Source of the DNA: Gracilariopsis chorda
Lineage: Eukaryota > Rhodophyta > Florideophyceae > Gracilariales > Gracilariaceae
NCBI GenBank assembly: GCA_003194525.1
Contig: NBIV01000216.1
Location: 1 to 64,000, forward strand
Reading direction: 5' to 3'
DNA length: 64,000 nt
The translations under genes were made by a program, and so were the position numbers. Positions within the stretch are counted from its first letter, which is position 1. Each line of letters starts with the position of its first letter. This document shows, piece after piece, positions 3,510 to 61,585 of the stretch. The notes under the pieces are model-generated. The model ran no database searches. It was not told where the DNA came from and worked only from the letters and a program-made list of their open reading frames with translations.

Positions 3510-6500
3510 TCATGCCATCATGCGAGGCTGTCGGCCTGTCGAGAACCTGCCAGAGGGGTGGGCTGGAGGTTTCAAAGATTGAACGTGACCAGTGGGTTGA
3601 TTAGAAGCCAGACCATTATGAGACGAAGACGTATCCGAGAGTGAAGTAGTCAACTGATCACTAGTCTCGACAACACTGGTTGTTGAACTCGCTCCCTGTG
3701 CCATGTTTGAATCACCGGTGCTGGTCGACGGGATTGGAGTTGGTGTAAAAATATTGTATCCACCGCCTGTCGCTGCGGTTATGCCGCCGTAGGCGGGAAC
3801 CGCTGGCCGGGCTGGCGTTGGCAAAGCGGGCGTAGACATTGACGGCTTGCTCTTGTTGAATGTATCAACATATGCCCTCCTACCAGGACGCCCAACTCGT
3901 CTGTACTTGTTGCTGTCGTGGTTGTTAGTGCCCGATGATGAGATTTTAGATGATGAACCTGCGGAATACGGGACGGGGGCACTTGCAGCGGAAGCAACCG
4001 ACGCTGCGCTTCCATCGTCCCCTCCAAAACTGTTGTCCAAAGAACCCGGACCTGAAAATGGAGGCTTAAGTGAGGCGGGTGCCTGGGTGTGTTCAGTATA
4101 TGGGTAATTGAAACCGTTTGAACCAAGTGCGTCTTGGGCACTTTGAGAGCGAAGAAGTGTAGGTACATTGTGAGCACTTTGCTCGGTGCTGGGGAGAGGG
4201 TCGTAACTTAAGCTTGCCTGCACACGATTTCCTTCGCCGCCGAACATGTCATCCTCATCAGGGGGTGGTGGTGGAACATCTTCTTCTTCGGTAGGTTCCT
4301 CTCCTTCTATTACCCATCTGCCCCTTTTCTTGTCAAATACGAACTTGTTTTCTTCTCCCATGTGAGCTCTGGGAGGGCCACCAAACGTGGCGGTCAACTT
4401 CTCCTTCAGACGCTCCCGCCATCCTTTCTTCTGCGTTGGCTTGTCTGTTGTAGCTGACGTATCGGTTACGTTCGAAGCTCGGGCTGGCTTCTTAGGGTGA
4501 AGGGGTGGCTTCTTTTCCGACGTCTGAGACTGCAGTGTCATATCTGATGCTGATCTGCGGTGAACAATTGCATCATTGTTCTCTTCTCTGGTAGCCTTTT
4601 GCAGCGGAACTCCATTCAATACAGCATGGCCCGATTTTCCTACGACAGCAAGAGGAACGCTCTTTTCGCTTCCAGATTCTTGAGACCCTGAATGTGGCAT
4701 TCCTCCGTTCTTAGGAACCGTCAACGCTGGAGTACTGTTGAAGAATGCGCTGGGAATAGCACCGACTGATGACGACCGCATATGGTTTGGTGCGAGCCCT
4801 TGCATGTTAGTCATCAAGCCAGAACCACCATCCAGCCCAATTGGTGCAGGATGTTGAGCCATAGATGGAGGAACACGTGAGGGAGGTGGGGGTGACAAGT
4901 CATAGTCCGCTGGGGCAATAAGACCAACTGTCTTCGAAACAAACTGATCCCATTTTTCTTTGCCACTCTTCTCAATCTTTGTTGCTTGAGTATTGGTGTT
5001 TGAGTTCTGGTTGATGAAGCCAGCAGGCTGAAGGGAATTGTATCCTGCACCCCACTGGGAATCAACAGAGAGATGAGGAGGGTGATTGAAAGGCATGGAA
5101 ACAGAAACTCCAGTGTTTCGCTCTTCATACGGCATAGCGGTTGTCGTAGCGAAGGACGCTGTGCTTGGAAGGTGATCCTGGCTTCTATCTGCTGAAGTGC
5201 TTGGTATCGAATGACGCTCTTTTGACGCCCGAGAGAAAACAGAAGAAAGCGATTTTCCTAATGCAGTTAGTTTTGTTAAGTTTCCAACCTCTTCTCGCAA
5301 ACCAAGATGAGCCCGCAGTCTTTGATCAAATGACTCTAAAGACGAAAGAAACGGAGCCGTAAACTGCGCTGCAATGGCGCTATTCCGAGACTCAAAAATA
5401 ACTCGAACTTGTTTGGAGATTGAATCACAGTGTGCCAACGCAATATCCGGATGACCTACAGAGGCAATCTCTTGTGCCAATAACAGACGGAATGGCAACA
5501 GATGTGGAAATGCAGCCCCACTTCTAGCATTCATCGCTGCCTCGTAGACAACAGATTGTAGAATTGAGCCAGGTGATCCTAGGGAGCGCGGTCGTCCAGG
5601 TGGAGTGCTTGGATTCGCACCTAAGAGGCAGATTCCTTTCGGATCAAGGCGGCCCAAACGACCAGATAGCAGGTAACAAACATGTGCCCCCACCATATCT
5701 GCATGTTGTGTGAGTAGGGCATCACCCACCTGCTCTATAAGGTGCAAAAACCGCGTTTCCCTCGCCTTGCTTGTCGTGACTGATGCACCGCTAGTTAGCA
5801 GAATCCCAACATTCTTCCTCCACTCGTCTAATCCAGCTGGCGAAGTTATTCTCCTTGTGATCTCTGCGTCGTTTTCGGCTAGCGAAAAGCAAAGCGTTTG
5901 CAAAGCGGATCCTTCTTGAAGAATGTTCTTCGCATAATCACAAAGAATAGAAGTGTAAAGCTTCGTGTCGACCATTCCTGACAGAATTAAAGCTAGTGAC
6001 CACATTCCAGATTTCTTGGCAAAGTTCACCGCTTCGACACCTTTCCCTTCAGTTAGCAACCTTTCCACCTCGGTAGCCACTCCTCGTGTCTCATCGGCTG
6101 ACTGTCCAGTATGAGATGGCAACAGGTCCTTTGCTTGTCCTTTTAATGGAGCTGACTGCAGGTCGTTCCTGCCGAAGAGTGGAACTGATGTTGGACCGCA
6201 AACAGCGTGGCCTGCCTCTTTTCTCCAATCTTCACCTTCCGTTCGGCAAAGCAAAGCCAAGGTTCGCCAAAGAGCAGCACGTCCCTCAGCAGCTGGACCT
6301 TCCAGGCCGGCGGATAATTGTGAAAGCTTGTCGCACATCTTTGCGTATGGTTCAAGGTCTGATGTCTTGAGAGGATAGGAAAGAGGATGAACTGCCTCAG
6401 AAGCTGCAATCCAATCGTCGTCGGCGCCATCCCTCCCAAGAGGGCTCATGTCATATAGCTGAACAGTATGGCCTGAGCTCTGAGCATCGGATGATGAAAT

Positions 6501-9500
6501 CAGTTCTGTTTGATGTTGCTGTCTTGGAAAGACTGCTACCATTGATCCAGCAAAGCCCCAGGTCACAATCGGTCGAGGCCCGGGGTGAATCATATCCCCA
6601 GACGGACTTGTGTCCATAATAGAGAAAGGGTACGAGAAGAATGTAGCGTCTAGGTAAGTGCTGTCGTGTTGCGTGTCCGCAGGCGTTCCCGCAGCTGCTT
6701 CCGGGGCATCCGTATAGTACTCTCCGTAGGCGTATCCGGGAAGTTCAGAAGTATACTGTGGATAGGTTTCCGTCGCGGATATACTCGGATGACTCGGTGA
6801 CGCTGCCAGATTCGGCATTGTGTCATCGGGTTCTAGACGACTGTGCTCAGGATGAACTTCAGGGATGTTCACATTCTGGGTAGCCGAAACAGATTTGTCT
6901 GTGGTTTTCTTACTTCCCTCTTCAGCCGTACCAGCTCGAACTGACTGCACATTGGAGACGGTTTCTGCGTTTGTGTGAGGGGGTGCTTCGAACGGAGAGA
7001 AACCTGATGGGTTGTACGAGTCAAAAGCGGCTTGAGGTAAAGATGACTGCGGGACTGAAACCGGCCCATTGCTGCCAAAGCACGGATCCATTGGGGCATT
7101 TTCGAAGACTTCCGTCATATGGCCTTGCGCACTCACAGGATTTGGAGCATATGGGTTCACGGAATTTGTCAAGGTTTCGGAATCTGTAACATGCGTTCCC
7201 TCGATTGCCTGGGAGTAACTGTATCCCTCTTGTGCTGGTATGCTTCCTTGGTGATTGTATGTGCTGCTCTGGTAGGCTTGGTATGGATATGACTCTTTAG
7301 CGGGCATATCACCATCTTGATTCTTCGCAAAGGCGTATGGATAAGGCACTGGGCTAGGATTTTCAATAGAGCCCGTCGCGGAGTCTGAGATTGAGTGGTC
7401 CTCAGGTCCCGAGGCCTCCGGACTGGGGTGGCTATGTGCAGTGTTCGCCGTAATATAAGTCTGTTTGGGAGCATATGCTCGCAGGTCAATGTCATATGCG
7501 CCGGCGGGTTCATGAGCCCGAGGAATTGAAGCCTGAGAACTTTGGGGGTTGTGGTCATGATCGTTGTCGTTGTGAGAATCAAGTGGACGATCGGTAAAAG
7601 GATACTGCGGGGTTGGAGATTCTTTTCTTTCACCCCACGTACTCGTTTCTGTCGAGCTTATCACTCGATTCGGCGCGTATGGTTTCTTCTCGTCACCAGG
7701 TTCAGTCGTTGGTGCTAAGAAGGAATCCAGATGTGTTTCTCTGTTATCCCCACCAGCACTTTCCAATACCTTATTATCAAAGGAGCTACTTTCGATTCCA
7801 AGGGAGGCCTGCGTTTGCAAAGGTTCCTGACGTGGTCCTATGCCCGTATGAAATTCTGGCTGCGCATTGGAGATATTCGGATTTGTGGACAGAAGCCGTT
7901 CTTGGTGCGGTGCATGAATCATGAATTCATTTTCTAACATGTTTGGATGACCTTGATTGTTCACTACACTCGTTGCGTCTTGTATTTCACCGCCATGCGA
8001 AGAAAAAACTACTTCAGCAGAGGAAGTTGCCCTGTTGCTCAAGTCTTTGCTTCCACCGTCTGTTGGTACCGGTTCCTTTTCTATACGGCTTCCTACGCTT
8101 GGGTCAGGACATAGAGATGAGTCATGCGGACCTTCGCCACCTGACTTGCTATGGGCAATACCTATTTCTCTGACATCTTCTCCTTCAACGTTCGCATGAT
8201 CTAATGAAGGAAGGTAGGATGGGGTTTCAGATTCGGTAGATTTCTTGTCTGAAGCGTACTCAACGGGATTTAAGCTTTCCATGCCGGCTGGAGTTAATGG
8301 CTTGTAACTTTCATTCTGAATGGCTTTGCCATTGATGGCTACAGGAGTCGGCTCGCTTGCTCGGTCCAGATGTGCAGTATGAGTGAATGTCCCTGGCAAC
8401 CCGTCATCCATTCTTGGTTTCGACTCTTCTGGTTCGTTAAATGAGTAATCGTCGAAAGGCTCGCCGGCGTTAGTGTCCATTCTCTCAGATCTCGGTTTCT
8501 TCATGTTATTCTTGGCCTCTGTCTGAAACCATAACGCATCTGGGCGTGGATCTTCTGTCTGCGAAATTTCGAGATCGAAACCATCCAGGAAAGGCTGTTC
8601 GGTTTGAACAACATCTCCAGTGGGTGCAAATGGATCATACCCGGGAAAATCAGATTCCTGTTTGAAGGCAAATCTTCCCTTACTTCGGTCCTCTTCTGCG
8701 TCACGAACGGGTTCAGTACTCTGCGAAACCGGAATGGATGGTGCTACGGGTGCGCTTGTCGAATCTTTGATCTCCGACGCATTACCATCGTTCAGCTTTT
8801 GAGTCCAATAAGAACTCGCATACGCTGCCTGTGTTGATATATGCGTATCTTCATCTTCGCGCTTGACTTCCGGAGTTACAAACGTCTCAGCGACCATTGT
8901 TAAATCTTGATTCATATTCTCAGTTTGAGGGGCAGTCGTTGTCTTACGCGGCACGAAGTCTCTAGAACGCACGTCCATATTTTCAAACGGCGTTCTATGC
9001 GGAGACCCAGCAGTATGCGGGTCTTTGGGTACCACTGGATGCACCGGCTCTCGCGAAACTGGCTGAAGAACGTCTTTCATCGTTTTAGACGGGTTCGGTT
9101 GCGATAAATGTGCAATTTCTGAGCTGTCTTCCCATCCTCCCCATGAACCAAAACCAGGACTTGCAGCATTTGTTTGGACGAACGAATGCATTACCGCGTC
9201 CTTAGGTGGGACTGCTAACGAAAAGACATCGCCTTCTTGAACACTCACCTTATCGTGTTCCTGTTGGACATCTTGTTCGTTCCTCTCACCTAATTTGGTA
9301 AGTACTTCTGTAGATAACTCTTCTCTTGTCTCATTGCCAAGCTCGTTATGGCGAAGCTGGGTAGAGCGATCCTCCCTTCTAGGAATTGACGATGCCGAAT
9401 CGATACTTGGGTATACGGTTGCTCCAAGATCTGATGCTTCCCGATTCTCGTCTTTCCGGACCATATGCGCATGAGGTTGAGCACTTTCAGCATCGGGTAC

Positions 9501-12341
9501 CACTGTAAACTCGCCATCATCCCAACCTCCCCATTCCTTTCCGGTGCTTTGTGGTTGGTAGCTCACTCTAAAGGAATCCATTATCTGATCCTTGGCTGTG
9601 TCACAGTGTTGAGCGGATTGAGTGACGTCTCTACCACTCAATTCAGGCTCTTGTCGTTCAAAGCGTTGACTCTCTTCCTCAATCCCGCTCCGCTCCCCAG
9701 ATACGCTTGTTTCTTCCTTTCCTTCAGCTGGCATGTCCGCTCTAGATTTCGCATTCACCGTATCTTGGACATTTAGACTGAACTGTTCACGAGACGACTG
9801 TTCCTGAAAAGCGCATTGCTCAAAACCTTCAGAGGTGCACTGAAATTGACCTGTCTCATGCCGTGCCACAGAAAATGCTTTATCGATATCTTCCCGGTTC
9901 TCCAGGGGAACTTCGTTCGAACGAGGTTCAATAAAGTCCGTTTCACATCTTGCATCTCTCGACAGAGCGCTAGGCTCAAGATATGCGTAATCCTCGTCCA
10001 CTGCTTCCTTCTTGAAAGATACAGTTTCATTGTGGACTTCCCGTACAGATTCAAACACCTGTGTTTGCATAGAAGGGGCAACGCGGAAAGGATGTGCATT
10101 CTGTGAGTCGCTTTCGACTTGCGCTTCATCTTTCGCATTCTGAGGTACCGCTAGATCGGAATGATGTAGCGGCACAGTCTCAGTCTCTTCTGCTTCTTCG
10201 ATAGAAAGAGATGCGCTTCCTTCTTCTGGAATCGCAAAGTCATCAGCATCACCCCATCCTCCCCAACTGTCATCCTCAATTTGTGGGACATCGTCAGGAA
10301 CACCAAAGTCGATTACTTGCTGGTTTGTACTGACTTCACCAGATAACTCAAGATTCGACGCTTCATGTTGCTCCTCTGCCGCTTCATCCGCAATCGTGTC
10401 TTGCTCAGCTGACAATTGGGGGCCGCCAGCACCCAGGTCGTCATCTTCTGCCTCCGGTTTTGCGCTTAGTACTTGTTCTTGGTGGATTTGATCCGCTAAC
10501 ACTGGTGTGTCCCGCTGTGCTGACACGTCCGTCTCGGAATTAGGTGGTACGTTAACAATGTCCTCATTTTCTTCAGAAGCAATTGCATTCTGGTCAATGG
10601 TAAAAGAATCTCCTCCGTCGTCATCCCAACCTTCCCACGCCTCACCTTCTTCTTGCTTCTCATTCTGTCCAAGAGCTTGCTCAAAGGTAGCAAGCACTTC
10701 ATCTCTCTCGCAAAAGCCTTGTTCATCGGTCTCAGCCTTGTCTCCTTCCTTCACAGCATTTCTGGAATCATTGCTAGTTCCCGTTTGCTGAGATTGGTGC
10801 TGTAATGATCCATCCCTAAACAACGTATACGAATGCTGCTGGTTATCTTCCGCCGGCATGTCATTAGCTGCATTAAAGTGCCCCATTGAATTCGAGTCTG
10901 GGCTAGGCTGCTTAGGGCTTTCAGCATCTTGAGGTACGTTGAAGGTGTGATCTTCCGGAACAGAAACTTGCCCATAAGTTTCCAGTGCATTGAAAGCATC
11001 ATTCTGGAAGTCGTTTCCGGGGCAAACTCCCGAAATCCTAATCTCCAGTGACTGGTGGTCTGTATCGCACTGCTCCGAAACGGTGTGTGCTGTTTCGAGC
11101 TGACTTCGCGTGGCTACAGTGGAATCAGTCTGGTCTTCACTCCACTTCAAGCTAGCTGGATCATTCGCGGGTATTTGTTCTCTTAAGTCGAGTTCAGAAC
11201 GCTGTTGTTCTTCTTCTACAAGACCTGACTGGGTCGGGCAAGGTTGATCTGGCGGCTTTGGGATTTCTGAAGCTTCTGGCAGCATGGAAAACGAAGACAC
11301 ATTCTGTTCTGCCGATGGTTGAGATTCATCGAAGCCACCCCAGGTGCCCCAGCCATCTTCATCTATACCCGCGTCATTGGCTTGCTCGTGTGTCGGAATT
11401 GGAGATTTTGGTCGCTGAGGACTGGTTGCACTAGGTGGCTCTTTGCTGAGGTCCGCATCATGGTCAGTCCGTTCAACTACTTTGGCCATAGTTTCGCCAA
11501 TTGATTGCACGGCTAAATCCGTTTCTCTAGCACGCTCCTTGTTCTCTAGTTGAACGGGTTCTCCGTGCATTTGCACAGGGGATGTAGCTCCCATCGCTGC
11601 TTCGGAGCCGTTTCCTTTTTCGTTCGCAGCAGCAGTCGCACGCCTATCGCCAGGATGCTCCTCCACACTCTCTGAAGACTGTATGCTAACTGGCGCCGTA
11701 GGGGTTTCATCGGACATGATATCATTCTTTTCTTCAGGGATCGTTATATCCCCAACGTCCCCCCATTCTCCCCATGTGCCCTCATCGGCTTCTGGATCAC
11801 TGTCGTCTAGAGAAGGATCGTCCCCCCAGCCGTCGGCTCCATCCCAACCTGTAAGAAAAGAAGGAACAACCGGTGTTGCAGAAGGTCTCGCTGGCTCAGG
11901 TTGTCTTGGTTCTTCTTGTAGCGAGAGAGAAGCTGGCTGTGCGGAGTCAGAAAACGTGGGCGTTCGTGGTGCAGAAGAATTCCTAGACGAAGTCGGGTTT
12001 GATGATGTGTTGAGATTCAAGCTTGATATTCGCGGAGTCCGACTAGGAGTAGAGTCATTTTTCACAGAGGTTGGTCTCGAACGCGCTCCAAGCCTAGACG
12101 ACAAAGGGGAAATGCGGCGACGCGGTGAAATGGTAAGAAGACTGTCCCAGTCCTCTTGCGCGGGAGCGGGGCGCGGTGTTGACGGAGCTGAGCTGTTAGG
12201 AGTGCTTTTAACTGACGGGGTGTCTGTATTCTGGAGACGCGACATTCCGGTGATGACGCCCCTCGTCGGCTGAGACTGGGTGGACATCAAGTCAGCAAAG
12301 CCCGCTCCTTGACGGTTGCGTGTGCGGCGCGCTCCTTTCAT
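3510..12341 (-). CDS. SEC16: Sec16, ER exit site scaffold (2,943 aa, single exon)
   Basis: Scaffold that organises COPII coat assembly at ER exit sites. The frame is open for 8.8 kb without introns. Residues 1-1900 are disordered and acidic, with seven Trp-Gly motifs (see separate entry) and Pro/Tyr-rich parts. About residue 1927 the segment WGFAGSMVAVFP matches the start of the Sec16 central conserved region. It is followed by an alpha-solenoid part (roughly 2000-2380) containing HPLSYPLK, ALWRTLALLCRTEG, EAVNFAKKSGMWSLALILSG and PFRLLLAQEIASVGHPDIALAHCDSI, as in the domain that binds Sec13 and Sec31 partners. Near residue 2670 the C-terminal block GEENKFVFDKKRGRWVIEGEE matches the conserved Sec16 C-terminal peptide. 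The start is the first ATG after an upstream stop-free stretch; it gives MKGARRTRNRQGAGFADL. It is longer than yeast or human Sec16. Confidence 0.9.
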   Translation of the reverse strand: MKGARRTRNRQGAGFADLMSTQSQPTRGVITGMSRLQNTDTPSVKSTPNSSAPSTPRPAPAQEDWDSLLTISPRRRISPLSSRLGARSRPTSVKNDSTPSRTPRISSLNLNTSSNPTSSRNSSAPRTPTFSDSAQPASLSLQEEPRQPEPARPSATPVVPSFLTGWDGADGWGDDPSLDDSDPEADEGTWGEWGDVGDITIPEEKNDIMSDETPTAPVSIQSSESVEEHPGDRRATAAANEKGNGSEAAMGATSPVQMHGEPVQLENKERARETDLAVQSIGETMAKVVERTDHDADLSKEPPSATSPQRPKSPIPTHEQANDAGIDEDGWGTWGGFDESQPSAEQNVSSFSMLPEASEIPKPPDQPCPTQSGLVEEEQQRSELDLREQIPANDPASLKWSEDQTDSTVATRSQLETAHTVSEQCDTDHQSLEIRISGVCPGNDFQNDAFNALETYGQVSVPEDHTFNVPQDAESPKQPSPDSNSMGHFNAANDMPAEDNQQHSYTLFRDGSLQHQSQQTGTSNDSRNAVKEGDKAETDEQGFCERDEVLATFEQALGQNEKQEEGEAWEGWDDDGGDSFTIDQNAIASEENEDIVNVPPNSETDVSAQRDTPVLADQIHQEQVLSAKPEAEDDDLGAGGPQLSAEQDTIADEAAEEQHEASNLELSGEVSTNQQVIDFGVPDDVPQIEDDSWGGWGDADDFAIPEEGSASLSIEEAEETETVPLHHSDLAVPQNAKDEAQVESDSQNAHPFRVAPSMQTQVFESVREVHNETVSFKKEAVDEDYAYLEPSALSRDARCETDFIEPRSNEVPLENREDIDKAFSVARHETGQFQCTSEGFEQCAFQEQSSREQFSLNVQDTVNAKSRADMPAEGKEETSVSGERSGIEEESQRFERQEPELSGRDVTQSAQHCDTAKDQIMDSFRVSYQPQSTGKEWGGWDDGEFTVVPDAESAQPHAHMVRKDENREASDLGATVYPSIDSASSIPRREDRSTQLRHNELGNETREELSTEVLTKLGERNEQDVQQEHDKVSVQEGDVFSLAVPPKDAVMHSFVQTNAASPGFGSWGGWEDSSEIAHLSQPNPSKTMKDVLQPVSREPVHPVVPKDPHTAGSPHRTPFENMDVRSRDFVPRKTTTAPQTENMNQDLTMVAETFVTPEVKREDEDTHISTQAAYASSYWTQKLNDGNASEIKDSTSAPVAPSIPVSQSTEPVRDAEEDRSKGRFAFKQESDFPGYDPFAPTGDVVQTEQPFLDGFDLEISQTEDPRPDALWFQTEAKNNMKKPRSERMDTNAGEPFDDYSFNEPEESKPRMDDGLPGTFTHTAHLDRASEPTPVAINGKAIQNESYKPLTPAGMESLNPVEYASDKKSTESETPSYLPSLDHANVEGEDVREIGIAHSKSGGEGPHDSSLCPDPSVGSRIEKEPVPTDGGSKDLSNRATSSAEVVFSSHGGEIQDATSVVNNQGHPNMLENEFMIHAPHQERLLSTNPNISNAQPEFHTGIGPRQEPLQTQASLGIESSSFDNKVLESAGGDNRETHLDSFLAPTTEPGDEKKPYAPNRVISSTETSTWGERKESPTPQYPFTDRPLDSHNDNDHDHNPQSSQASIPRAHEPAGAYDIDLRAYAPKQTYITANTAHSHPSPEASGPEDHSISDSATGSIENPSPVPYPYAFAKNQDGDMPAKESYPYQAYQSSTYNHQGSIPAQEGYSYSQAIEGTHVTDSETLTNSVNPYAPNPVSAQGHMTEVFENAPMDPCFGSNGPVSVPQSSLPQAAFDSYNPSGFSPFEAPPHTNAETVSNVQSVRAGTAEEGSKKTTDKSVSATQNVNIPEVHPEHSRLEPDDTMPNLAASPSHPSISATETYPQYTSELPGYAYGEYYTDAPEAAAGTPADTQHDSTYLDATFFSYPFSIMDTSPSGDMIHPGPRPIVTWGFAGSMVAVFPRQQHQTELISSSDAQSSGHTVQLYDMSPLGRDGADDDWIAASEAVHPLSYPLKTSDLEPYAKMCDKLSQLSAGLEGPAAEGRAALWRTLALLCRTEGEDWRKEAGHAVCGPTSVPLFGRNDLQSAPLKGQAKDLLPSHTGQSADETRGVATEVERLLTEGKGVEAVNFAKKSGMWSLALILSGMVDTKLYTSILCDYAKNILQEGSALQTLCFSLAENDAEITRRITSPAGLDEWRKNVGILLTSGASVTTSKARETRFLHLIEQVGDALLTQHADMVGAHVCYLLSGRLGRLDPKGICLLGANPSTPPGRPRSLGSPGSILQSVVYEAAMNARSGAAFPHLLPFRLLLAQEIASVGHPDIALAHCDSISKQVRVIFESRNSAIAAQFTAPFLSSLESFDQRLRAHLGLREEVGNLTKLTALGKSLSSVFSRASKERHSIPSTSADRSQDHLPSTASFATTTAMPYEERNTGVSVSMPFNHPPHLSVDSQWGAGYNSLQPAGFINQNSNTNTQATKIEKSGKEKWDQFVSKTVGLIAPADYDLSPPPPSRVPPSMAQHPAPIGLDGGSGLMTNMQGLAPNHMRSSSVGAIPSAFFNSTPALTVPKNGGMPHSGSQESGSEKSVPLAVVGKSGHAVLNGVPLQKATREENNDAIVHRRSASDMTLQSQTSEKKPPLHPKKPARASNVTDTSATTDKPTQKKGWRERLKEKLTATFGGPPRAHMGEENKFVFDKKRGRWVIEGEEPTEEEDVPPPPPDEDDMFGGEGNRVQASLSYDPLPSTEQSAHNVPTLLRSQSAQDALGSNGFNYPYTEHTQAPASLKPPFSGPGSLDNSFGGDDGSAASVASAASAPVPYSAGSSSKISSSGTNNHDSNKYRRVGRPGRRAYVDTFNKSKPSMSTPALPTPARPAVPAYGGITAATGGGYNIFTPTPIPSTSTGDSNMAQGASSTTSVVETSDQLTTSLSDTSSSHNGLASNQPTGHVQSLKPPAHPSGRFSTGRQPRMMA
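9121..11860 (-). other. Seven acidic W-G-x-W motifs in the Sec16 N-terminal region
   Basis: Translation of the Sec16 N-terminal half shows GWDGADGWGDD (near 11850), GTWGEWGD (11775), DGWGTWGGFD (11350), EAWEGWDDD (10632), DSWGGWGD (10262), KEWGGWDDG (9527) and GSWGGWED (9136). Each sits in acidic disordered sequence, often followed by FTI, ITIPEE or FAIPEE. Spacing is irregular (about 25 to 245 residues), so these look like short linear docking motifs rather than a tandem DNA repeat. Confidence 0.8.
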
Positions 12342-13048
12342 GGGATAATAGTTAGCAATAAGTTGATGTGAGCGGGGTGAAAAGGTGGATAAGTAGTCTG
12401 TACAAGAGGGAGAAGGCAATAGGATAAGAGCTGGGCTGCTACAAGCAAGCTACGCAAAGGTGCGACGAAGGATCTTATGCAGCTAGTTTGAGTACGCCAT
12501 ACCGTATGGCGTCTGCATGCTTGTCTGTGCGGTGTTCCTGGCAGAGCAGCGGTGTAAAGCCACAAGGTCTTCTCCGGTTACGCTGGCGCCGCGTCGCCCT
12601 ATTAGAGCAACATGCGGAATAAGGCGATGCGGTGATTGGTGTTTTTTTTATGAGCAACGGCGCTTCGCCGCGCTGTTAAAAGGAACTGCGCCAGAAAAAT
12701 ATGACGCAAAAGCCGCCCAATCAACTTTTGGCAAATGACTGCCATGGCAGACCAGCCACGTCGTCTGCTACCCACTGCACACTCCTCAAACTCAAACGCA
12801 TCATAATTGGCTCCTCATCTCGCTCTATCTCGAGCGCACCGTCAGAACGCATTCGTTCGCTTCATCAGTGAGATGTCACGTCTTCCAAAGTCCTAGAGGT
12901 ATCGCTCAGCCGGAAGGTTTGCCAAAAGCGAAATGAAAGGGTGTAGAGCATTACTTATAAACTAGTTCCGTTACGCTCCAGTAACTATCAGCCGCTATCG
13001 TGAACAGCATACTTTCCAAAGAGGCACTTTCCCCGTCTTCCGATCAGC
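12342..13048. promoter_or_regulatory. Divergent promoter region Sec16 / ERCC1
   Basis: 707 bp between two divergent start codons. An inverted CCAAT box (ATTGG) lies at 12635-12639 and a forward CCAAT at 12717-12721, about 80 bp apart in the middle of the region. No coding frame is convincing. Confidence 0.5.
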
Positions 13049-42411: not shown

Positions 42412-45400
42412 CTACTTATTAAGCGCGGCCAGGCGTGCTCGCAATTGTTGGACCCGACTCCTCTTCCCACCACTGCTCGAAGAGGTGGACGAGAGCTTTT
42501 CAGTCAGACGTGAAAAACGCGAGGTGGACTCGGATGTAGTCCTCGTGAGGGCTCCTTCTTGGAACATATTCACTTCGGTTCCATTCTGGGAGCGAACACT
42601 TTGTTGCCAATGGGCAGCTTCTCCAGCGAAAAATCCGTCGCTGCTCGTGGCTTTTGGCCGCATGGGTTTTTGGGATAGTGGAACGCGTGTGTCTGGCGAA
42701 AACAACAGGTCGTCATCGCTCAAGGATCCAGACGGCTTTGAATCACTTCTTGCATGAGCGGGGCTGGTGTTTCGCAAAAAGCTATGATTGGCTGCAGTGG
42801 CCCCGTTCCTTGCGGAAAGAACTGCCTTCACAGTACCGGTTGCTTTTCGCAAACCATAGGTCTTCTCCACGGAGTCCACCTTTTCGACTGGTGGTTCGAC
42901 CGGCGTGGAGAACGATGTTGTAGACTCTGGCGTCATGAATAGTTTCTTTTGCACGGTCTCCCGCGGCGCCAGTGGAGTCGGGTGCTCCTCTGCCAACTCT
43001 TCGACGGAGCTCTGGAGGCTTTCCGCTCCATCCCTGACGTCGACATTGATGGCAGAGCTGATTTCATCATCGCTACCTTGGGGCACATCCGCATGACCGA
43101 GCTGTTTCTTAGAGGTTTCGTCTTCTATCGGAGTTTGCGTCTGAACTGCCTCGGGTGCAGGAGATGATGGATTGGGCAACAATGATGACGCCGCATGAGA
43201 TGTACTCGTGGCCACGGTGGACCTTGATCTGCACTCCGTTAAGCCGTTGAAGTTAACCTGGCTACCTGAACGCGATGGAATCGAAGAGGCGGCCTGGGGT
43301 TTGGATGCCGGTACAGCCGGCGCTACAGGTATGACAGAGCGCTCAATTGCATCCTTACGCCTCATGACGCGTCTCGGGGTCTGCGTGCGCTGGATGCGAG
43401 GAGGCTTTCCAGAGGTCACCTGAGGAGGTCGTCCCTTGTCACTCTTTGGTGTATGTTGGTCACGTCTTCTAGTGCGAGTACTTGATCCTTCCTTCTTCGG
43501 TTGAGGCTCCGTGGGTTTCTCCGTGGGTGTCTTGGGGCGCGCTGAGCGTTCTGCGGGCTCACGCTTGACAACAACGCCGGCAGTGTCCACGGCATTCGCG
43601 GCTCCTCGTGATGTCGGCTTGTCAGTGTCTTGCAAGCTCTTCCTTACATCCTCCACGGTAGACAGACTTGATGGAGATGACGGGTACAGCTCCGTGGTGC
43701 ACCGGGTCTTTCCAATCCTAGAAGCGTGAACAACGGTGTCATCGCCAGACCTCGTAGCACTATACGATGGAGGAAGCTCAGCAAACCTGACACTGCGCGC
43801 AGTCTTCGTCGCAGACGACGTGGACGACGAAGGTGTGCACAACACTAATGAAGCGGAGTCGGACTCCAAATCCGCAGACTTTGTGCTGGATTGGGTGAGT
43901 GCGTTGAACGAATCAAACGAACGGGAAGAGCCGTCATTCTTCCGTCGTCTGGCGCTACGTGCAACCGAAGAAGACTTGTTGCTGCTGTTCGCCGCAACAG
44001 AGCGCTCCAAAAGCTGCGAAGCCTGCCGTACATCACTCGCAGAATCATGTTCGACTCTTCCCTTTTGATGAGCCTGTGTTTGCGAAGCGATAATCCTCTC
44101 AGCGTCCGCAGCGGCCTCAATAAACCACGACGGTTTGGTAGTATTCGGGGAGGGGATACAAGGTACCTCCTCACCCATGAGGGAGCCGTCCGAGTCAATA
44201 GGTTCCAGAAGTTTCAGCGAAGCGTCCGACTTGGCAGCAAACTCATTGGCTTCCTTGGTGAGTCGTTGCGAATTGTCCAGCACTTGTTTGTGCTTCCTGA
44301 GGGCGGCCTCGACAGTGGCGCGTAAAGGATTAGTAAGATGCTGTTGTTGTTGTTTCTGATTAGTCTTTTGGATAGAATGTTCCTTATCATTGATTGCCTT
44401 TTCTTCGTCAGTTACAGTTGATGAAGCAGATGTAATGTCGACATCGGAGCGATGCGTGACAGGAGGTGGAGGGGACGGTGACGCGGCGAGGGTAGCTGGA
44501 CCACGGCGAGCACGAGTAGAAGTGGTGCTGTTTGTGCGGTCACGATGGTGCGGCTGTGCAGCGGCAGAGATTTGATCCATGCGATGCGCCGCGACCTCAA
44601 GTTGTTCAGTGGCAGCGCGCACCAGCCCGACAATATCATGTGCGGAGGCATCCGTAACACGCACGCCAGGCACTTGGCCGGCCTGGGCGGCACGCTCAGC
44701 AGCAGCCAAATCATGGCACAATTGGGGACCATTTTGAGCAGTATGATCAGCAAAAGCGAGCAGCCGTTTAAGGTCAGCCGAAAGCTGTTCGCCATCCACC
44801 GATTCAACGGCGTCGCCCAGCGAAGAACCCGACTCGGTGCTTTCAATGGGCGAGGTCTTGAGCTCATCTTGCAAAGTATCGGACGAAGCGGAGGTGTTCA
44901 ACTGCGAAGCGGTGGGGGCGTCGGTGGGATTGGCAGCCGTGGTAGTGTTGACTGGCGGTGCATCACCTCCACGAATGTCGTTTCCATTCTCGTCGAAGCC
45001 CATGTCAGCCAACTGCATCTTGAGACATCGCAACTTGGCTTCAAAATCGGTGATCTTCTCTCGAAGAGAGTCGGCTTCAGAATTGCACATAGTAGCGCCC
45101 TGCTGCGCCATATTGACGGTACGGGCCATAGCCAAGCGCTGGGCGTCAACAGTAGCGCGCATAGTGGTAGCATTGTTTGCACGATTGTGGGCGGCCGCAA
45201 TCAAACCCGCTCCAAGAAACCTCCTCGAAGCGCAAGTGGCCGAGGCAGACGAGGAGAGCGACGCGGCAGCACCCCGTGCCGAAGCGGGCTTCCCCCTCGA
45301 GTGGAAGGAATGAAAAGAACGAATGGAACGCGACGAAGAGGCAACCGAGGCGGAATCATCCGGGATGGGGGGCGAAGAGACGGCGAATCGTGTGGGGTTG

Positions 45401-45825
45401 GCGTACGGGGGGTGTCGAACACAAGCGTGTTGCACGGCAAGACAGGAAAGCGTCCATATCAAATCGAGAAACCTATCACCTCCGGCCGCAGCCACAACGC
45501 TCTTCCTGGCGGCGCCCTGCGGGATGAGCTTGTTCTTCTCCAGCAGCGAGAGTCTAGCGTCGACCACCTTTTTAAAATCGCGCTCCTGCGCGCGGTCGAG
45601 GATGGGGAAACAGGGCTTGAAGAGGGGCTGCACGACGGAAGGCTCGATGACGGAGAGCAGGAAGTGCAGGACGGCGGCGGCCGGGGCGAACGAAGACGGT
45701 TTAGCAAAGGTGGTATCGGTGATGGTGTGGCCGTAGCGGGCGCGAAAAGCGGAGGGAGAGCCGGCTAGCAGGGTTAAATTCTCGACGATTAGTTGTGCGG
45801 GGGTGGGGAGTGCATGAGTGGACAT
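42412..45825 (-). CDS. HAUS6: Augmin subunit HAUS6-like protein
   Basis: Augmin (HAUS) recruits gamma-tubulin to existing microtubules for branching nucleation in the spindle. The 1,137-residue product has a HAUS6 N-terminal-like domain in residues 10-145: AAVLHFLLSVIEPSVVQPLFK, CFPILDRAQERDFKKVVDARLSLLE (the CWP-x-DKK-x-EFRK region of HAUS6) and GGDRFLDLIWTLSCLAVQHA. A coiled coil (MRATVDAQRLAMARTVNMAQQ, ITDFEAKLRCLKMQLADMG) follows. The long C-terminal part is Ser/Thr/Pro-rich and disordered, as in other HAUS6 proteins. ARSVRFAELP near 43790 fits an RVxF PP1-docking motif. The ATG at 45825 was chosen because sequence upstream is GC-rich leader. The frame stays open above it, but no family similarity appears there. 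Confidence 0.72.
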   Translation of the reverse strand: MSTHALPTPAQLIVENLTLLAGSPSAFRARYGHTITDTTFAKPSSFAPAAAVLHFLLSVIEPSVVQPLFKPCFPILDRAQERDFKKVVDARLSLLEKNKLIPQGAARKSVVAAAGGDRFLDLIWTLSCLAVQHACVRHPPYANPTRFAVSSPPIPDDSASVASSSRSIRSFHSFHSRGKPASARGAAASLSSSASATCASRRFLGAGLIAAAHNRANNATTMRATVDAQRLAMARTVNMAQQGATMCNSEADSLREKITDFEAKLRCLKMQLADMGFDENGNDIRGGDAPPVNTTTAANPTDAPTASQLNTSASSDTLQDELKTSPIESTESGSSLGDAVESVDGEQLSADLKRLLAFADHTAQNGPQLCHDLAAAERAAQAGQVPGVRVTDASAHDIVGLVRAATEQLEVAAHRMDQISAAAQPHHRDRTNSTTSTRARRGPATLAASPSPPPPVTHRSDVDITSASSTVTDEEKAINDKEHSIQKTNQKQQQQHLTNPLRATVEAALRKHKQVLDNSQRLTKEANEFAAKSDASLKLLEPIDSDGSLMGEEVPCIPSPNTTKPSWFIEAAADAERIIASQTQAHQKGRVEHDSASDVRQASQLLERSVAANSSNKSSSVARSARRRKNDGSSRSFDSFNALTQSSTKSADLESDSASLVLCTPSSSTSSATKTARSVRFAELPPSYSATRSGDDTVVHASRIGKTRCTTELYPSSPSSLSTVEDVRKSLQDTDKPTSRGAANAVDTAGVVVKREPAERSARPKTPTEKPTEPQPKKEGSSTRTRRRDQHTPKSDKGRPPQVTSGKPPRIQRTQTPRRVMRRKDAIERSVIPVAPAVPASKPQAASSIPSRSGSQVNFNGLTECRSRSTVATSTSHAASSLLPNPSSPAPEAVQTQTPIEDETSKKQLGHADVPQGSDDEISSAINVDVRDGAESLQSSVEELAEEHPTPLAPRETVQKKLFMTPESTTSFSTPVEPPVEKVDSVEKTYGLRKATGTVKAVLSARNGATAANHSFLRNTSPAHARSDSKPSGSLSDDDLLFSPDTRVPLSQKPMRPKATSSDGFFAGEAAHWQQSVRSQNGTEVNMFQEGALTRTTSESTSRFSRLTEKLSSTSSSSGGKRSRVQQLRARLAALNK

Positions 45826-48800
45826 TGCGGAGGGAGGTGCGTCGAACGTGCGGGGCGGGGGGAGGGGGTATGGTGTATATTTTTGTGTGGCGCCTGGGTA
45901 CACACGGGGGGGGGAGGGGGGAGGGAGAGGGGGAGGGGGGAGTGGGGGAGTGGGAGGTGGGTGACCAGAGGGCAGGGGCGCCACGAACGATGAAAGGTCA
46001 AAACGGCAGCGGAGGAAGCGCACGCACGCCAAAAAAAGGAGGCGACGGGCGCGGCACTGGGAGCAGTGTGGAAGGCAGCAAAAAGGGAGTTGCGGGGCGG
46101 GAGCGAAAAGCGGGCGGGCCCTACAAACGGGCGCCCAGGACGCGAGAAGAAAAGGCGCCACAAGATGCGGAGCTGGGAAGCGCGACGTCGCGGAGGCCGG
46201 GAATGTTTGACGGACGTTTTGGGAATGTGGCGCGGATGAAAGTGAGGCACTTGCACCGTGCGGGCGGGGGCACGTTTTGTGGGCCGTCAACCGCGAAGGC
46301 GCTCCATAGCGCGGCGCGCGCAAACGGTCGCAAACGGCGCCGCGCGCGCGCATTCCCGAATTGGGTAAGCCGCGTGACGAGCCATCACGCGCGCGCGCGC
46401 GCGCCGCACGCCGCCGCGCTTACAGCACTCTGTGCCGCGCGCCGCGCTTACAGCCGGCTGCTTGGCGTAAAGTTATGATGCGTTGCCGGGCGCGTGCCGC
46501 ACGAGTCGCGAGCGCGCGGCGCGGCGTGTTTGCGTGAAGGCGCGCGCTCTCGAGACCAACCAGCCCACGCCAGCGCGCCTGCCAAAGCCCCAAATTCCCG
46601 AATGCGCCGCACCTCGAGACAAACGGCGCATGTCAGCCGCACAAACGCAGCGCCGCTGTCACGCCGCCCGCGCGCGCACTTGCAGCCCCACGTGGCCGCG
46701 TGGCCACCTCGCACACGTCGCACAGCCCCCCCCCCCCCCGCCGCGCGCTCAATTCAACTGTGGTGCGTTGCACGCGCCCGCTGACAGCCGCCGACGCGAC
46801 GCCCGTGTCCCGCTGCGGGTGCCGCCTGACCGCCGTGCTACGTCTTGCGGCGCACCGCCTACACCAGCACTTCACTGTACAGTACCTCCTCATCAACGCC
46901 GCCGCCGTCGCCGCCGCCCGCGCCCGCGCAGAGAAGGAAACCGTTTCTGTAAAATTTAAACAGCCGTCGTGGCTGCCCTCCCTCATCGCCCGTGCGACAA
47001 GCACGTCGCTCGCCTGCGTTTGTCGCAACCCGTCTCGCGCCGCGTCGTGCCGCCCGTGTTGCGCGCTTTTTTCTTGCACCCCACCATAATCCCAACCCCC
47101 CTCTCGCGCGCTTTTCTTCGCAACTTGAATAACAGCTTAGCTTTGACACAACTCCGCAACCTGTAGCGGTTGAACGCTTAGCGGTAACCACTTACTCCTG
47201 TGCCTTGTGCTTTGTGCGCGTGCATCAGCGCATCTCAAACGCCACCCCATCATGCGTACATGATGCATCTACACGCCTACGCTATCGCCACGCTCGCTCA
47301 CGCAGCTGTTTGATGAGTCTAGTACACATTGTTTGTTTTGTAGCGTACACACGTACCCTCTTGACAGTGCGCATCAACTCAACACAGGACGGCGCTCCGC
47401 CGTCGTCGTCGACACAAAGCTAACGTTGCGCCTGCCACACCGAACCTTTTCTAACTTACATCAAATCAACAAAACAATGGCCCATCACGCAACCCACAAT
47501 CAGCATGTGCTTCCACATGATCTTGTGTTGGCACCTTTCTGGTCAAGCCGCCCCCCCCGCCCCCCCGAAGAAGAGGGCTAAAAATATTCCGCAAAATAGT
47601 TTTGTTGTCAAAAGTGTCACACGTTTTGGGAAAATGCTCGCAACGGCCAACCTTGTATGCGCTGCCGTTCTAACGCCACGCAATGACGTACACAAAGCGC
47701 GCCGCTACAGCTCAAAACACGCAGCTCAGCGCTGCAGCCACCAACCGTCCCCCATTCCCAGCTCCCATCACTTGCTCTGCGCTCCACCCGTCCCGCCTCA
47801 TACACACCACAACCACCCCACCCCGTCCACATACACACACCACGTCAAGATACAAACGCCCCCATTCCAAAACATTCCCGCTCAAAACCATCTGTGCCAC
47901 AACAACAACTTGCCTGCACTGCCGCCCACCTGCTACAACAGCCCCCGACGACAAACACTTGTCCGCAACCTTTCGTACCGCCCACCACTTGTTCAAACGC
48001 ACTTGCGCTCGCCGAAATGCTTCCCGTTCCACGCAAACCACATACACCGCCCTACGCCAACAGAAGAGCCAATAATAAAAGCACTCAACGCGCGCTGTAA
48101 CTTCGAGTCGTCGTCAATCATCTCGCATCTTATTGCCACCAAAGCCAAGAAACTCCATGCCCGTCAAGCATGCATGCCACACCGCACGTTTCCACAGCGC
48201 GGAGCAGCCGTCGACACGGCCGCCCGTCACTTGCCGCCATGTACCCAACGGTATGAGCTTTTTGTCGCGTCACAGCGGCTCTTTCGCCGCGCCTTCTCGA
48301 TCTTCAACCTCACACAGTGATGAGTGCGCTGCGCGATCTCTTATCACACCGAACCCTAAATCGCGAACAACACAAAAATCATTCATGAATTTCTGTGTTG
48401 TGCCCAATCTGCTTTTTTTTTTTAATGCGCACGGCAGATGGCACCGATGTTTGGGCGCTTGTACGTTTGGTGGCGCACGTGCCCGGAGCTGACAGCAACC
48501 TCAATTCTTGTGCTGCCTTCTCTTGCGAACGCGCGCCATGTTGCGCCACACGTGGCACACTAATCATACACTTCTTGGGAGCCTTGGTATCCTGCGCACG
48601 CTTTCTTCGGTACAGTACCCTCAAATCCTCTTTGAGCACATGTACCCTTGGTAACCCTCCCTTTGAAGTACTGTGCAAGAATCCACCGTGGATGCAAACC
48701 GCGTCGGCGCAGTTGCCCCGCCACTGTCTACCATTCCGTACATAAAGAAGGTTTCATAACTTGACCCTGGCTACAATTTGTGAAAGATTCAGCTACTACG

Positions 48801-58018: not shown

Positions 58019-58623
58019 TTATTCAACTGGAATAGGCAGGGAGTCCTCAAAAAGGATGCGTAGAGCACTCGCTTCTTCAGCCATTTCGTGAGACGAACGA
58101 GGTTCTCGATTTTTCTTAGCGTCGACAGGTACGGTTCGGGACAAATCTTCTTTGTTTAACTCTTCGTAGACTAGGTCATTGACCTCAAAATCACCGTTGC
58201 GGCGGGGAAGAATGTGGATATGGACGTGAGGTACGGTCTGACCAGCAGCGGATCCATCCTGAATCGCAAATGTAAGAGCTTCAGCCTTGAAATGTCGTTC
58301 AAGATGTTTGGACACTAGACAGGCTACGGTCCACAAATCTGATAGTTCTGAAGGATTCAAGTCTGATACCCGCGCGGCGACGCGACGACTCACGACAAGG
58401 CAGTGGCCTGGTGGGATATCATGCATTGAGAGCAATTGGTGAGCTGCTTGCATGGTTTGGAGAAACGATCAGATAGGGCGCTCTCGATGGATTATAAAGT
58501 AGACGCACCTGGGACAATTGGCTTGTGATTCACCATAGCGATGGCGTGGGATGAAAGATAGAAAGCTTCACTCCATCTGCAAACCCACGGTCCGAAGTTG
58601 AAGCCAGTACCAATGGTAACCAT
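58019..58623 (-). CDS. FHIT: FHIT-type HIT hydrolase (Ap3A hydrolase), 2 exons
   Basis: Histidine-triad hydrolase cleaving diadenosine triphosphate and similar dinucleotides. Exons 58623-58509 and 58407-58019 (donor GTGCGT, acceptor CCACCAG) join in frame to 167 residues. Exon 1 codes MVTIGTGFNFGPWVCRWSEA and ends AMVNHKPIVPG, matching FHIT's SFALVNRKPVVPGH. Exon 2 has LTFAIQDGSAAGQTVPHVHIHILPR with the H-x-H-x-H triad, then NDLVYEELNKEDL and a C-terminal helix EEASALRILFED. A single-frame reading starting at 58453 would lose the conserved N-terminal strand. Confidence 0.9.
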
Positions 58624-59442
58624 TGAAAGGAGCTAGCGCAGGGCCTACTTTTTCGAAAAGCGGCAGGAAACGTGAAGTTCAGAGCATTGAACAAGAGTCT
58701 GGTTCACGCCTTGTTCAAACCACGAAAGAAATAATACTGTACTACACTACCTATCGGCGACAGAACTGTACAACTCACTCCATGAACTGTGAAGTTATCC
58801 ACATTGAGAAACTGCTTGGCACCCCGCACGCGCTGTCGGAGAGACAGTAGCCTTGGTACAGTATCTATCCTAGTGCGGTCAGCAAGCGTCAGGCGACGCG
58901 GATGCGGAGGTGCCCCCTTTCGGCGGCAATTTGCGAGGCGGCGGCGCGAGCGACTCACCCAGCAGTATGCGGCCCAAAATTGGCGGCTGTGGAGGCGAAC
59001 GTGCATCACGCCAATGAGAGCGCGCGGTGTCTCTCTTCAACCACCTAACGCACGCCAGCTCAGTCTCCTCTGTAGCACACGCGGTGACACGATCTCAAAC
59101 CGGCTCTCGTCAACATTTTGGGACCGTGGAGTGCCTTGCGCCCGCCCGCCGGAGCTCACCGCTCGGCGCACGCGCCGCCAGCCCCCCACCCTGACAACTC
59201 CGAGATTGCTCTCAAAAGCGTCTCACCGCCTCCCTCCGGCCTCCGTTCCTACCTGTCCTTCCCAACGCCACGCTCTCTTCGCCTAGAGAAGCCTCTCCCC
59301 TTTTGTCTGTCCTTTCCCTTTCGCTTAGCTGTCAACCTGCACTGCCGCTCTCCCTCTCCCCGTTGACTGCACATTTTGGCGTTAACAGTTCCAATTCTTA
59401 TTCAGCTAACGAGTTGGTGTGTGTTTCGCATCTGATTCAAAC
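58624..59442. promoter_or_regulatory. Divergent promoter FHIT / TPR-Tic22
   Basis: 819 bp between divergent ATGs. A CCAAT box is at 59011-59015 next to GCGCGCGG. The part 59100-59440 on the plus strand is pyrimidine-rich, like other leaders here. No gene. Confidence 0.5.
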
Positions 59443-61585
59443 ATGTTTGTAAGTTTATATACTTTGATTCATTTGCTGCTCATCTCGTTTTTCATTCTCC
59501 CCCGCAAACTTGTTCTAACTGTTTTCAATCGTCACATCGTGCACGCAGAGCGTTTCGGGAAGAGGAGGTAGGAACTCCAAGGCCATTCGCGAATACAAGG
59601 CCGTAGGGAACAAGGCTATGCAGTTGGGTTCCTTCCAGAAGGCCATTCGTCTATACTCAAGGGCTCTAGAACTCGATCCTGGAAACGCCATTCTTTACAG
59701 CAACCGTAGTGCAGCGCATTTCAACATTCGCCAGTTTTCCGAATCTCTGGAGGATGCAGAAAGCTCCATCTTATGCGATGGTATGTGGTGGAAGGCTTAT
59801 AAACGCAAAGGCCTCGCTCTTATCCATATGCAGCGTTACGAGGAGGCTATCGAGGCTCTGGAAGAGGGGCTTAAAATTGTAGGGAAGAACGCTGAGATGG
59901 AGAAAAATCTCGAGTTTGCGCGCGCTTGCCAGGAACAGGCGCAGAATTTGTACATTTTGCCCGAACCGCATATGATGCAGCGTCTCGAAAGTGTACCCGT
60001 CTTTATCGTTACTGATGACGTCGGTCAGCCCTTCTTCGTGACCTATGATGATGGTCAGCAGGTTTGCACCTTCTACTTTGACCAGGAGGATGCTAAGGCC
60101 ACACTGGATTGGATCAAAACTGAAAACCCGGACCTGGGAGACACTGCACGTGTAATTCACATCACTCTGTATCAGGCTTTCAATCTAGCACAGGAGACTC
60201 AAAAGCAATACTACGAAGAAACCACGCGTGCTGCTGCAGAGGAGGACCGTGCTGCTGCGGCTGCCGCGGCGGAAAAAGCCAAGCAGGCTAAGGCTGCTGC
60301 CAAGAAGGCCGCCGCCGGTAAGGATAATGGAATCAAGAAGAACACGGATGGTCAACAAAAGGAAGTAGATGATTGGGAAGAGGGAGATACTGTAGTGGAC
60401 GGTGAGGAAGATAACGTTGATGATGTAATTGACGCCACTGCGAGCAAATCTGTTGACACGGCTGACGGGACTGTGCCCGGAAGTCCTTCTGGAGAACCTG
60501 CAGCTGCGCATGAAAGCGCTGAAGAGTCAAAAGAAGTTGATGAATCGGCAAAAGACAGCGGTAACGACGACGCTGAGAATGTGAGGGATGGTGAGGAAGG
60601 AAATGCGAAGAAAGACGGTAGCAAAGGCGAGGACGCTGGTGACAAGAAAGATGGCAGCGAGAAGAAGGACGATGACATTATCATTGACGATAATGCACCT
60701 CTCTCATTCCAGTTCAGACCAGAGCTTCGACAAGTTGAAGTCGCAGTTGACTTGCTCAACAAGCATCCGAATCCTCCCGTTCGCCCTATTCTCAGAGATC
60801 CTCCATCAGTGAAGAAGGCAAAAGCAGTGGCAAGAGCGGCAGAAGCAGCTAAGAAAGCCCCAGAGAATCCCGCAAAGGCTGAAGAGAGTGAAGCGTCAGC
60901 TACAAAGCCCGAAGAGACAAAGGAAACATCTCCTAGCGGCGGTGACGCCGGCGCAAGTGCCTCCAGAGCTGAACCGGGCTCTGCTGCTAATGAAGGTGAT
61001 GATGATGACGAACTGACTGTGGATAACTTTAATGGAATTCCCGTTTTCCAGGCTAAAGGCCTTACTCTGCTTCAGAAGAACAAGCAGCTCATTCCGCTCT
61101 TCTTCTCGAAATGGGACCTTGAAGCTGCCTGGAAGCAGCTTAAGGAATCGAACACAATTGACGTACCTGGAGAATGTGAGATTGAGGTTGGTACCTTGGA
61201 GGATGTGCTGAGACGAATGTCGGAAAGTAAGACAGATGAGTTTGAGTCAATCTTCTTTGTGCCATCACGGGAGGCGATGAAGGCTATCAACGTCAGGTTT
61301 CCCCTTGATGAGCTTGCACTGCCTTCGAGGCCGCCTATTGTGAAAAGGCCTGTTAAGAAGGCAGGGTTTTCGAAAGCACGTCAGATTGCAGCGCGTGGTG
61401 GCACAAAGGATGAGATCCGTGCGGCCATTCGGGAGGATTTAGAGAAGCACGTTGAGCGTCAACGCATGGCCGAGATCATAGCTCAGATTGAGCAAGCGCG
61501 ACGTGCTGGGGGTGTTGGACCTGCCACCGGTGTGAATAAGAAGGCTAAGAAAACCCCAAAGGTGAAGCAAGGTGTGCAGGCGTGA
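59443..61585 (+). CDS. TPR-Tic22 fusion protein, 2 exons
   Basis: Tic22 is a soluble chaperone-like plastid import factor of the intermembrane space. Exon 1 is ATGTTT (59443-59448), the intron 59449-59548 begins GTAAGT, and exon 2 is 59549-61585; total 680 residues. Residues 14-125 are a three-repeat TPR domain of HOP/Toc64 type: YKAVGNKAM, ILYSNRSAAHF and WWKAYKRKGLA keep the five carboxylate-clamp residues (K, N, N, K, R) that bind EEVD tails of Hsp70/Hsp90. Residues 142-216 are the first Tic22 half (MMQRLESVPVFIVTDDVGQP, FDQEDAKATLDWIKTENPDL). A charged Ala/Glu/Lys/Asp insert covers about 217-385. The second half (about 389-583) has LSFQFRPELRQVEVAVDLL, FNGIPVFQAKGLTLLQKN, LFFSKWDLEAAWKQL and EFESIFFVP. 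No transit peptide is visible; frames above exon 2 lack an alternative ATG. Confidence 0.8.

Follow-up and report, generated by a model that had tools for sequence, protein, structure and literature searches.

What does a protein do, and where, when a chaperone-docking TPR domain is joined in one chain to the plastid-import protein Tic22? The question is raised by the locus at 59443–61585 (+) of the window, i.e., the 64,000 nt stretch of Gracilariopsis chorda DNA that was analysed (contig C216; the assembly has 1081 contigs and 91.3 Mb). An earlier note on this DNA had claimed that one frame links the TPR domain to Tic22, and had suggested a search with the Tic22 (PF04278) and TPR profiles. 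Both claim and search were borne out. A single open frame of 678 codons (59549–61582, +; P0001, to which the residue numbers below refer) carries the two domains, and the predicted protein, with exon 1 included, has 680 residues. It matches Pfam Tic22 (1.8e-29, 103.2 bits against a cut-off of 23) and TPR_1 (5e-14, 51.9 bits against a cut-off of 27.8), each in two stretches. In the profile search of the genome, both Tic22 stretches of the window passed the cut-off separately (59912–60196, 38.9 bits; 61019–61282, 66.1 bits).

By the curated Pfam cut-off the fusion belongs to PF04278. It scores 95.9 bits with TIGR00995, an NCBIfam Tic22 subfamily with a cut-off of 413.15 bits, and falls outside it, as do both Tic22 paralogues of the genome (93.4 and 53.6 bits). 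A search of the PDB with the Tic22 part alone (E ≤ 0.1) matched four sequences, all of them Tic22 structures; a chance match or a wrong family is ruled out, as both domains also lie above their curated cut-offs. Judged by profile, the fusion is a member of the Tic22 family, though a non-canonical one.

The clamp-type TPR domain occupies residues 13–114 (59585–59890, +) and aligns without a gap to residues 4–105 of STIP1/HOP. Residues K17, N21, N52, K82 and R86 (codons at 59597, 59609, 59702, 59792 and 59804, +) fall on residues 8, 12, 43, 73 and 77 of HOP, and their letters were checked. K8, N12, N43, K73 and R77 of HOP TPR1 are what we take to be the carboxylate clamp residues, and with five of five matched, the earlier claim of a complete clamp holds. 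Pfam TPR_1 detects two TPR repeats, and the alignment to HOP supplies a third. HOP/STIP1 was also the best match of solved structure, over query residues 13–150, among the best 60 of 114 sequences at E ≤ 0.01. For comparison within the genome, frames of at least 120 aa were taken from 30 TPR_1 loci, of which two lie in the window, and compared by BLASTP (E ≤ 1e-3). The full K-N-N-K-R clamp was seen in no other match among these frames. Two frames (L011 and L036) have K-N-N-R-R at the clamp positions, and a module in L008 has N-N-K-R, its first clamp position lying beyond the alignment. The closest other TPR frame of the 30 loci compared is L011, at 30.6% identity.

Both halves of Tic22 had been described in the earlier note. 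The Tic22 core is indeed present, but in three pieces parted by two low-complexity inserts. Piece 1 (59951–60187, +) lies in the upstream Pfam match and aligns with the paralogues and with cyanobacterial Tic22. Insert 1 (60236–60697, +; about 154 residues) is rich in acidic residues (46 D/E versus 21 K/R), has a coding preference of 0.39 in frame, and faces a gap in all other aligned rows. The short middle piece 2 (60698–60784, +) contains FQFRPELRQV, which aligns with FRFYPDSKQV of the paralogue on contig C25 and FRFMPPAKQM of L044. Insert 2 (60785–60982, +; about 66 residues), delimited by alignment and composition, is rich in Ala, Lys and Glu. Piece 3 (60983–61333, +) holds the downstream Pfam match, and is followed by a C-terminal tail and stop codon (61334–61585, +) with 21 K/R versus 8 D/E. 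The strongly basic character of this tail (61334–61582, +) contrasts with the acidic insert 1.

When the fusion was aligned with the two paralogues and five cyanobacterial proteins, the Tic22 core was seen to span LPEPHMMQRLESVPVF to FVPSREA and to be 25–32% identical to the five cyanobacterial proteins. The identity of the Tic22 part to cyanobacterial Tic22 is at most 36% over 203 columns. The end of the TPR falls near the expected end of the signal peptide in cyanobacterial Tic22. The long inserts and the basic tail are missing from the other aligned Tic22 proteins, and could provide reach or surface contact. By a codon table trained on eight long open frames of the window, themselves unproven genes, the frame of the fusion ranked top of six in six of seven segments, both inserts included; the exception was the 29-residue middle piece.

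The Tic22 profile gave four matches in the genome, representing three genes (on C25, on C119 and in the window). Those on C25 and C119 have Tic22 as their sole Pfam family at E ≤ 0.1 and carry no TPR. The C119 frame has 127 residues ahead of the Tic22 match. Upstream of the C25 match is an ATG-started, Ser/Pro/Arg-rich stretch beginning MAF, which is in another frame and would therefore need splicing to join Tic22.

Potential partners of the clamp were sought among 14 Hsp90/Hsp70 matches (3 and 11), and the C-terminal ends were inspected in nine long frames (3 and 6); five Hsp70 matches that were short or broken were set aside. Of the nine, two, both of cytosolic type, end in -EVD, which a clamp requires of its partner: the Hsp90 on C102 (NMEEVD) and the Hsp70 on C250 (ISEVD). 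Four others have KDEL or HDEL-type ends, and three have neither type of end. None of the nine combines an -EVD end with an organelle-type N-terminus. Since -EVD ends were found only on cytosol-type Hsp90 and Hsp70, the partners of the clamp, if the clamp works, are predicted to be cytosolic. Of the cytosolic or organellar Hsp70/Hsp90 proposed in the earlier note, it is the cytosolic alternative that is favoured and not the organellar. The cytosol-type Hsp70 (L050, G000:C250:41282-43114) ends DVEISEVD; the usual end of cytosolic Hsp70 is IEEVD or EEVD.

The genome has four amidase frames. Three were inspected and end within about 30 residues past the amidase match, and no TPR in one frame with an amidase, as in Toc64, was seen in these three (the C164 frame was left out). 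Of the 34 TPR_1 matches of the genome, C31 has some, more than 100 kb from its amidase frame, and C69, C2 and C164 have none. The Omp85 channel family has two matches. The AIG1 profile has nine; it also matches in 12 of 14 control prokaryotes, and the AIG1 matches therefore do not identify Toc GTPases. Some of the AIG1-type GTPase matches are clustered, three on C14 (G000:C14:477847-482043) and two on C45 (G000:C45:223618-227877). Seven PBS-linker matches were found on seven contigs, in keeping with a mesophilic red alga; the accessible text of PMC6811547 describes this family as expanded in mesophilic red algae.

Tic22 was found in 104 of 292 cyanobacterial genomes (117 matches). The frames of 116 of these are no longer than 351 aa, and one is 495 aa. 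A frame of 351 aa could just fit a TPR and a short Tic22, and the 33 frames entered in a Tic22 tree were therefore searched with the TPR of the window. Of these 33, 29 were from the 117 matches and four from a separate search of a collection of genome contigs, in which five cyanobacterial loci were matched; frame length was the only criterion for the remaining 87 matches. The TPR matched none of the 33 at E ≤ 1, while the Tic22 part matched all 33 at E ≤ 1e-3. The 495-aa frame starts without a TPR and continues after Tic22 with Gly/Asp-rich repeats. A TPR of the fusion type is absent from all 34 cyanobacterial Tic22 frames read. No relative of the fusion was found among the viral contigs. A bacterial origin of the fusion is not supported, either by the 33 tree frames and the 495-aa frame or, as judged by length, by the other 87 matches. 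The 495-aa frame is the second Tic22 of one cyanobacterium (L094/L095, G102:C1:1871700-1874300), and its repeats are presumably of the calcium-binding type.

For the tree, 35 cyanobacterial loci were offered and two (L046 and L091) were dropped at frame choice. The window row joined the C25 copy (99/84), with a warning of long branches meeting. Without C119 this pair was retained at 86/73; without C25 the window grouped with one cyanobacterial row (96/82), and by path L044 was nearest. The grouping of the window with C25 may be long-branch attraction. The only genome known to have the fusion is that of the window, the one eukaryote genome searched.

The first ATG of the frame within exon 2 is at 59618, and a start there would drop K17 and N21, while the ATGTTT at 59443, joined to the exon behind the acceptor CAG ahead of 59549, gives the full TPR. 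Predicted exon 1 (59443–59448, +) encodes only Met-Phe and is followed by a predicted intron of 100 bases (59449–59548, +; GTAAGT...CAG), which lacks a coding signal in its frame (-0.10) and hits a stop codon on read-through. The GTAAGT at 59449 is the only GTRAG site in 58454–59548, and of the eight other ATGs in this interval none is followed in phase by a donor of the tested forms. With this sole donor, and with ATGTTT in phase with the acceptor, the predicted intron is plausible.

In this gene model the first TPR helix starts after about 14 residues. The Met-Phe start comes directly before the TPR exon and leaves no room for a normal leader, in agreement with the earlier claim that a plastid leader is lacking; the predicted protein is without the leader that would mark an intermembrane-space Tic22. 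The short N-terminus is basic with Phe at position 2, features that recall the transit peptides of red algae. The next gene found upstream, a divergent neighbour, encodes a HIT-domain protein (58019–58453, -); its profile match starts at position 25, and its N-terminal part may sit in an upstream exon. Elsewhere in the window are a 2969-aa frame (3510–12419, -) with a Sec16 Sec23-binding domain (5.2e-25) and a 1313-aa frame (42412–46353, -) with the N-terminal domain of the augmin subunit HAUS6 (4.7e-14).

The reading we prefer, at a probability of about 0.45, is that the fusion is a nucleus-encoded, probably cytosolic co-chaperone docking to Hsp90/Hsp70, a holdase for plastid preproteins that works like a soluble Toc64. 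The clamp-type TPR would take the place of the leader in other Tic22 proteins and grip cytosolic Hsp90 and/or Hsp70 by the C-terminal -EVD. The Tic22 part would hold unfolded plastid preproteins brought by these chaperones and pass them to the import channel of the outer envelope, a soluble version of the role of the TPR receptor Toc64 of land plants. In its favour are the two domains in one open frame, the full set of clamp letters, the conserved Tic22 core, the -EVD ends confined to cytosol-type Hsp90 and Hsp70 among the nine frames inspected, the lack of an amidase-TPR frame among those read, and the presence of the Omp85 family. The predicted N-terminus, too, has no room for a normal leader; in the two other Tic22 frames the domain is preceded, in the frame or upstream of it, by a long stretch. 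Counting against it are the end of the Hsp70, ISEVD rather than the usual EEVD, the occurrence of the fusion in a single known genome, and the basic, Phe-2 N-terminus, a weak point of the cytosolic claim, though this stretch has no more than about 14 residues. The known Tic22 proteins work in the intermembrane space, across the outer membrane from the cytosol, and the link to plastid import is suggested only by Tic22 family history. The proposed steps of docking, holding and delivery build on the accessible parts of three papers, which describe chaperone-like activity of Tic22-III (PMC12895209), binding of Tic22 to the POTRA domains of Toc75 (PMC4811774), and reception of Hsp90-bound preproteins by Toc64 via its TPR (PMC5296341).

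It is quite unlikely, although conceivable, that a TPR-Tic22 in the cytosol of red algae docks preproteins carried by Hsp90/Hsp70 straight onto the Omp85/Toc75 channel, possibly at POTRA domains that there face the cytosol. Such a protein would be the red-lineage counterpart of Toc64, and it might have persisted in complex red plastids, in the periplastid space. Contact with POTRA from the cytosol side needs the cytosolic POTRA orientation of Sommer et al. 2011, which is cited and questioned in the accessible text of PMC4195282.

A strong rival is a cytosolic or nuclear co-chaperone with no plastid role, in which the Tic22 fold has been redeployed, as a holdase of general use or an adaptor for quality control, without any part at the translocon, for example by sending mistargeted proteins to Hsp70/Hsp90. 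This is possible, though still doubtful. It draws on the same domain and clamp evidence and on the lack of a leader in the gene model, and the tail and inserts not shared with other aligned Tic22 proteins fit it too. Land plants have a divergent, longer Tic22-like protein, At5g62650, with no function assigned in the accessible part of PMC3652856. The Tic22 core of the fusion is nevertheless kept at positions common to plastid and cyanobacterial Tic22, suggesting that an old binding job has been retained.

The fusion is unlikely to work in the intermembrane space, entering without a normal leader and uniting the proposed Toc64-Hsp70-Tic22 complex in one chain. The accessible text of PMC12895209 relates that Toc64, Toc12, Tic22 and an intermembrane Hsp70 were once proposed to form a complex, a proposal that was later disputed. 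Some envelope proteins, Tic32 among them, are imported without a TP (PMC10063809, in its accessible text), and the N-terminal Met-Phe and basic residues would suit such a route. Against this, the residues ahead of the first TPR helix are very few, and no inspected Hsp70/Hsp90 frame has the required pairing of -EVD end and organelle-type N-terminus. Least probable, and very unlikely, is an artefact of the gene model or assembly, with a leader exon hidden upstream or with TPR and Tic22 on separate transcripts. The start of the TPR does hang on one predicted splice, but the two domains share one exon and a stop-free frame that is best of six in six of seven segments, the interval 58454–59548 offers neither a second GTRAG donor nor another ATG with a tested in-phase donor, and the HIT gene upstream is on the opposite strand.

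Parts that work together are often united by gene fusion, and the fusion therefore suggests that clamp-type chaperone docking and Tic22 are functionally linked. According to the accessible text of PMC12895209, such a link had been suggested in plants but was subsequently contested. The fusion also makes it conceivable that Tic22 can act outside the envelope, and it offers one gene open to tagging, binding and removal. No description of a TPR-Tic22 fusion was found in the available text of the literature searched, subscription papers, preprints and domain-architecture databases lying outside that search, and it may be annotated elsewhere. Reception of Hsp90-bound preproteins at plastids without Toc64 was likewise not described in the accessible literature examined.

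Compared with the Tic22 family (PF04278; plant Tic22-III/IV, Anabaena Tic22 4ev1, apicoplast TIC22 4e6z, 8xks chain I and 8xqw chain Q), the fusion shares the profile match and a conserved core in the same order, and differs by a clamp TPR replacing the leader, two large inserts and a basic tail. Toc64/OM64, with an amidase-like domain and a C-terminal clamp TPR, is similar in joining a clamp-type TPR to a plastid-import part, and the TPR of mitochondrial OM64 (6q3q) is among the structure matches of the fusion TPR (5.9e-10). The TPR of the fusion is N-terminal, however, and no amidase is among the 12 Pfam families listed for it, which sets it outside Toc64 as defined by the amidase-like domain. 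HOP/STIP1, SGTA and other cytosolic clamp-TPR co-chaperones are alike in that the fusion TPR is closest in sequence to HOP TPR1, but the fusion has Tic22 instead of DP, Sti1 or Gln-rich parts. At5g62650, the third Tic22-like protein of Arabidopsis, is likewise a Tic22 paralogue outside the canonical type and carries extra sequence (of its 529 residues, about 335 are homologous); the accessible text of PMC3652856 gives it for land plants only and does not mention a TPR. PPP1, a periplastid import factor of the red lineage, resembles the proposed role of the fusion in its place at the TOC step, on the side equivalent to the cytosol. As described in the accessible parts of PMC3228799 and PMC7617431, it is set apart by a Gln-rich, C-terminal conserved block, with no Tic22 or TPR mentioned there, and it indicates that the red lineage has its own import factors on that side of the TOC step.
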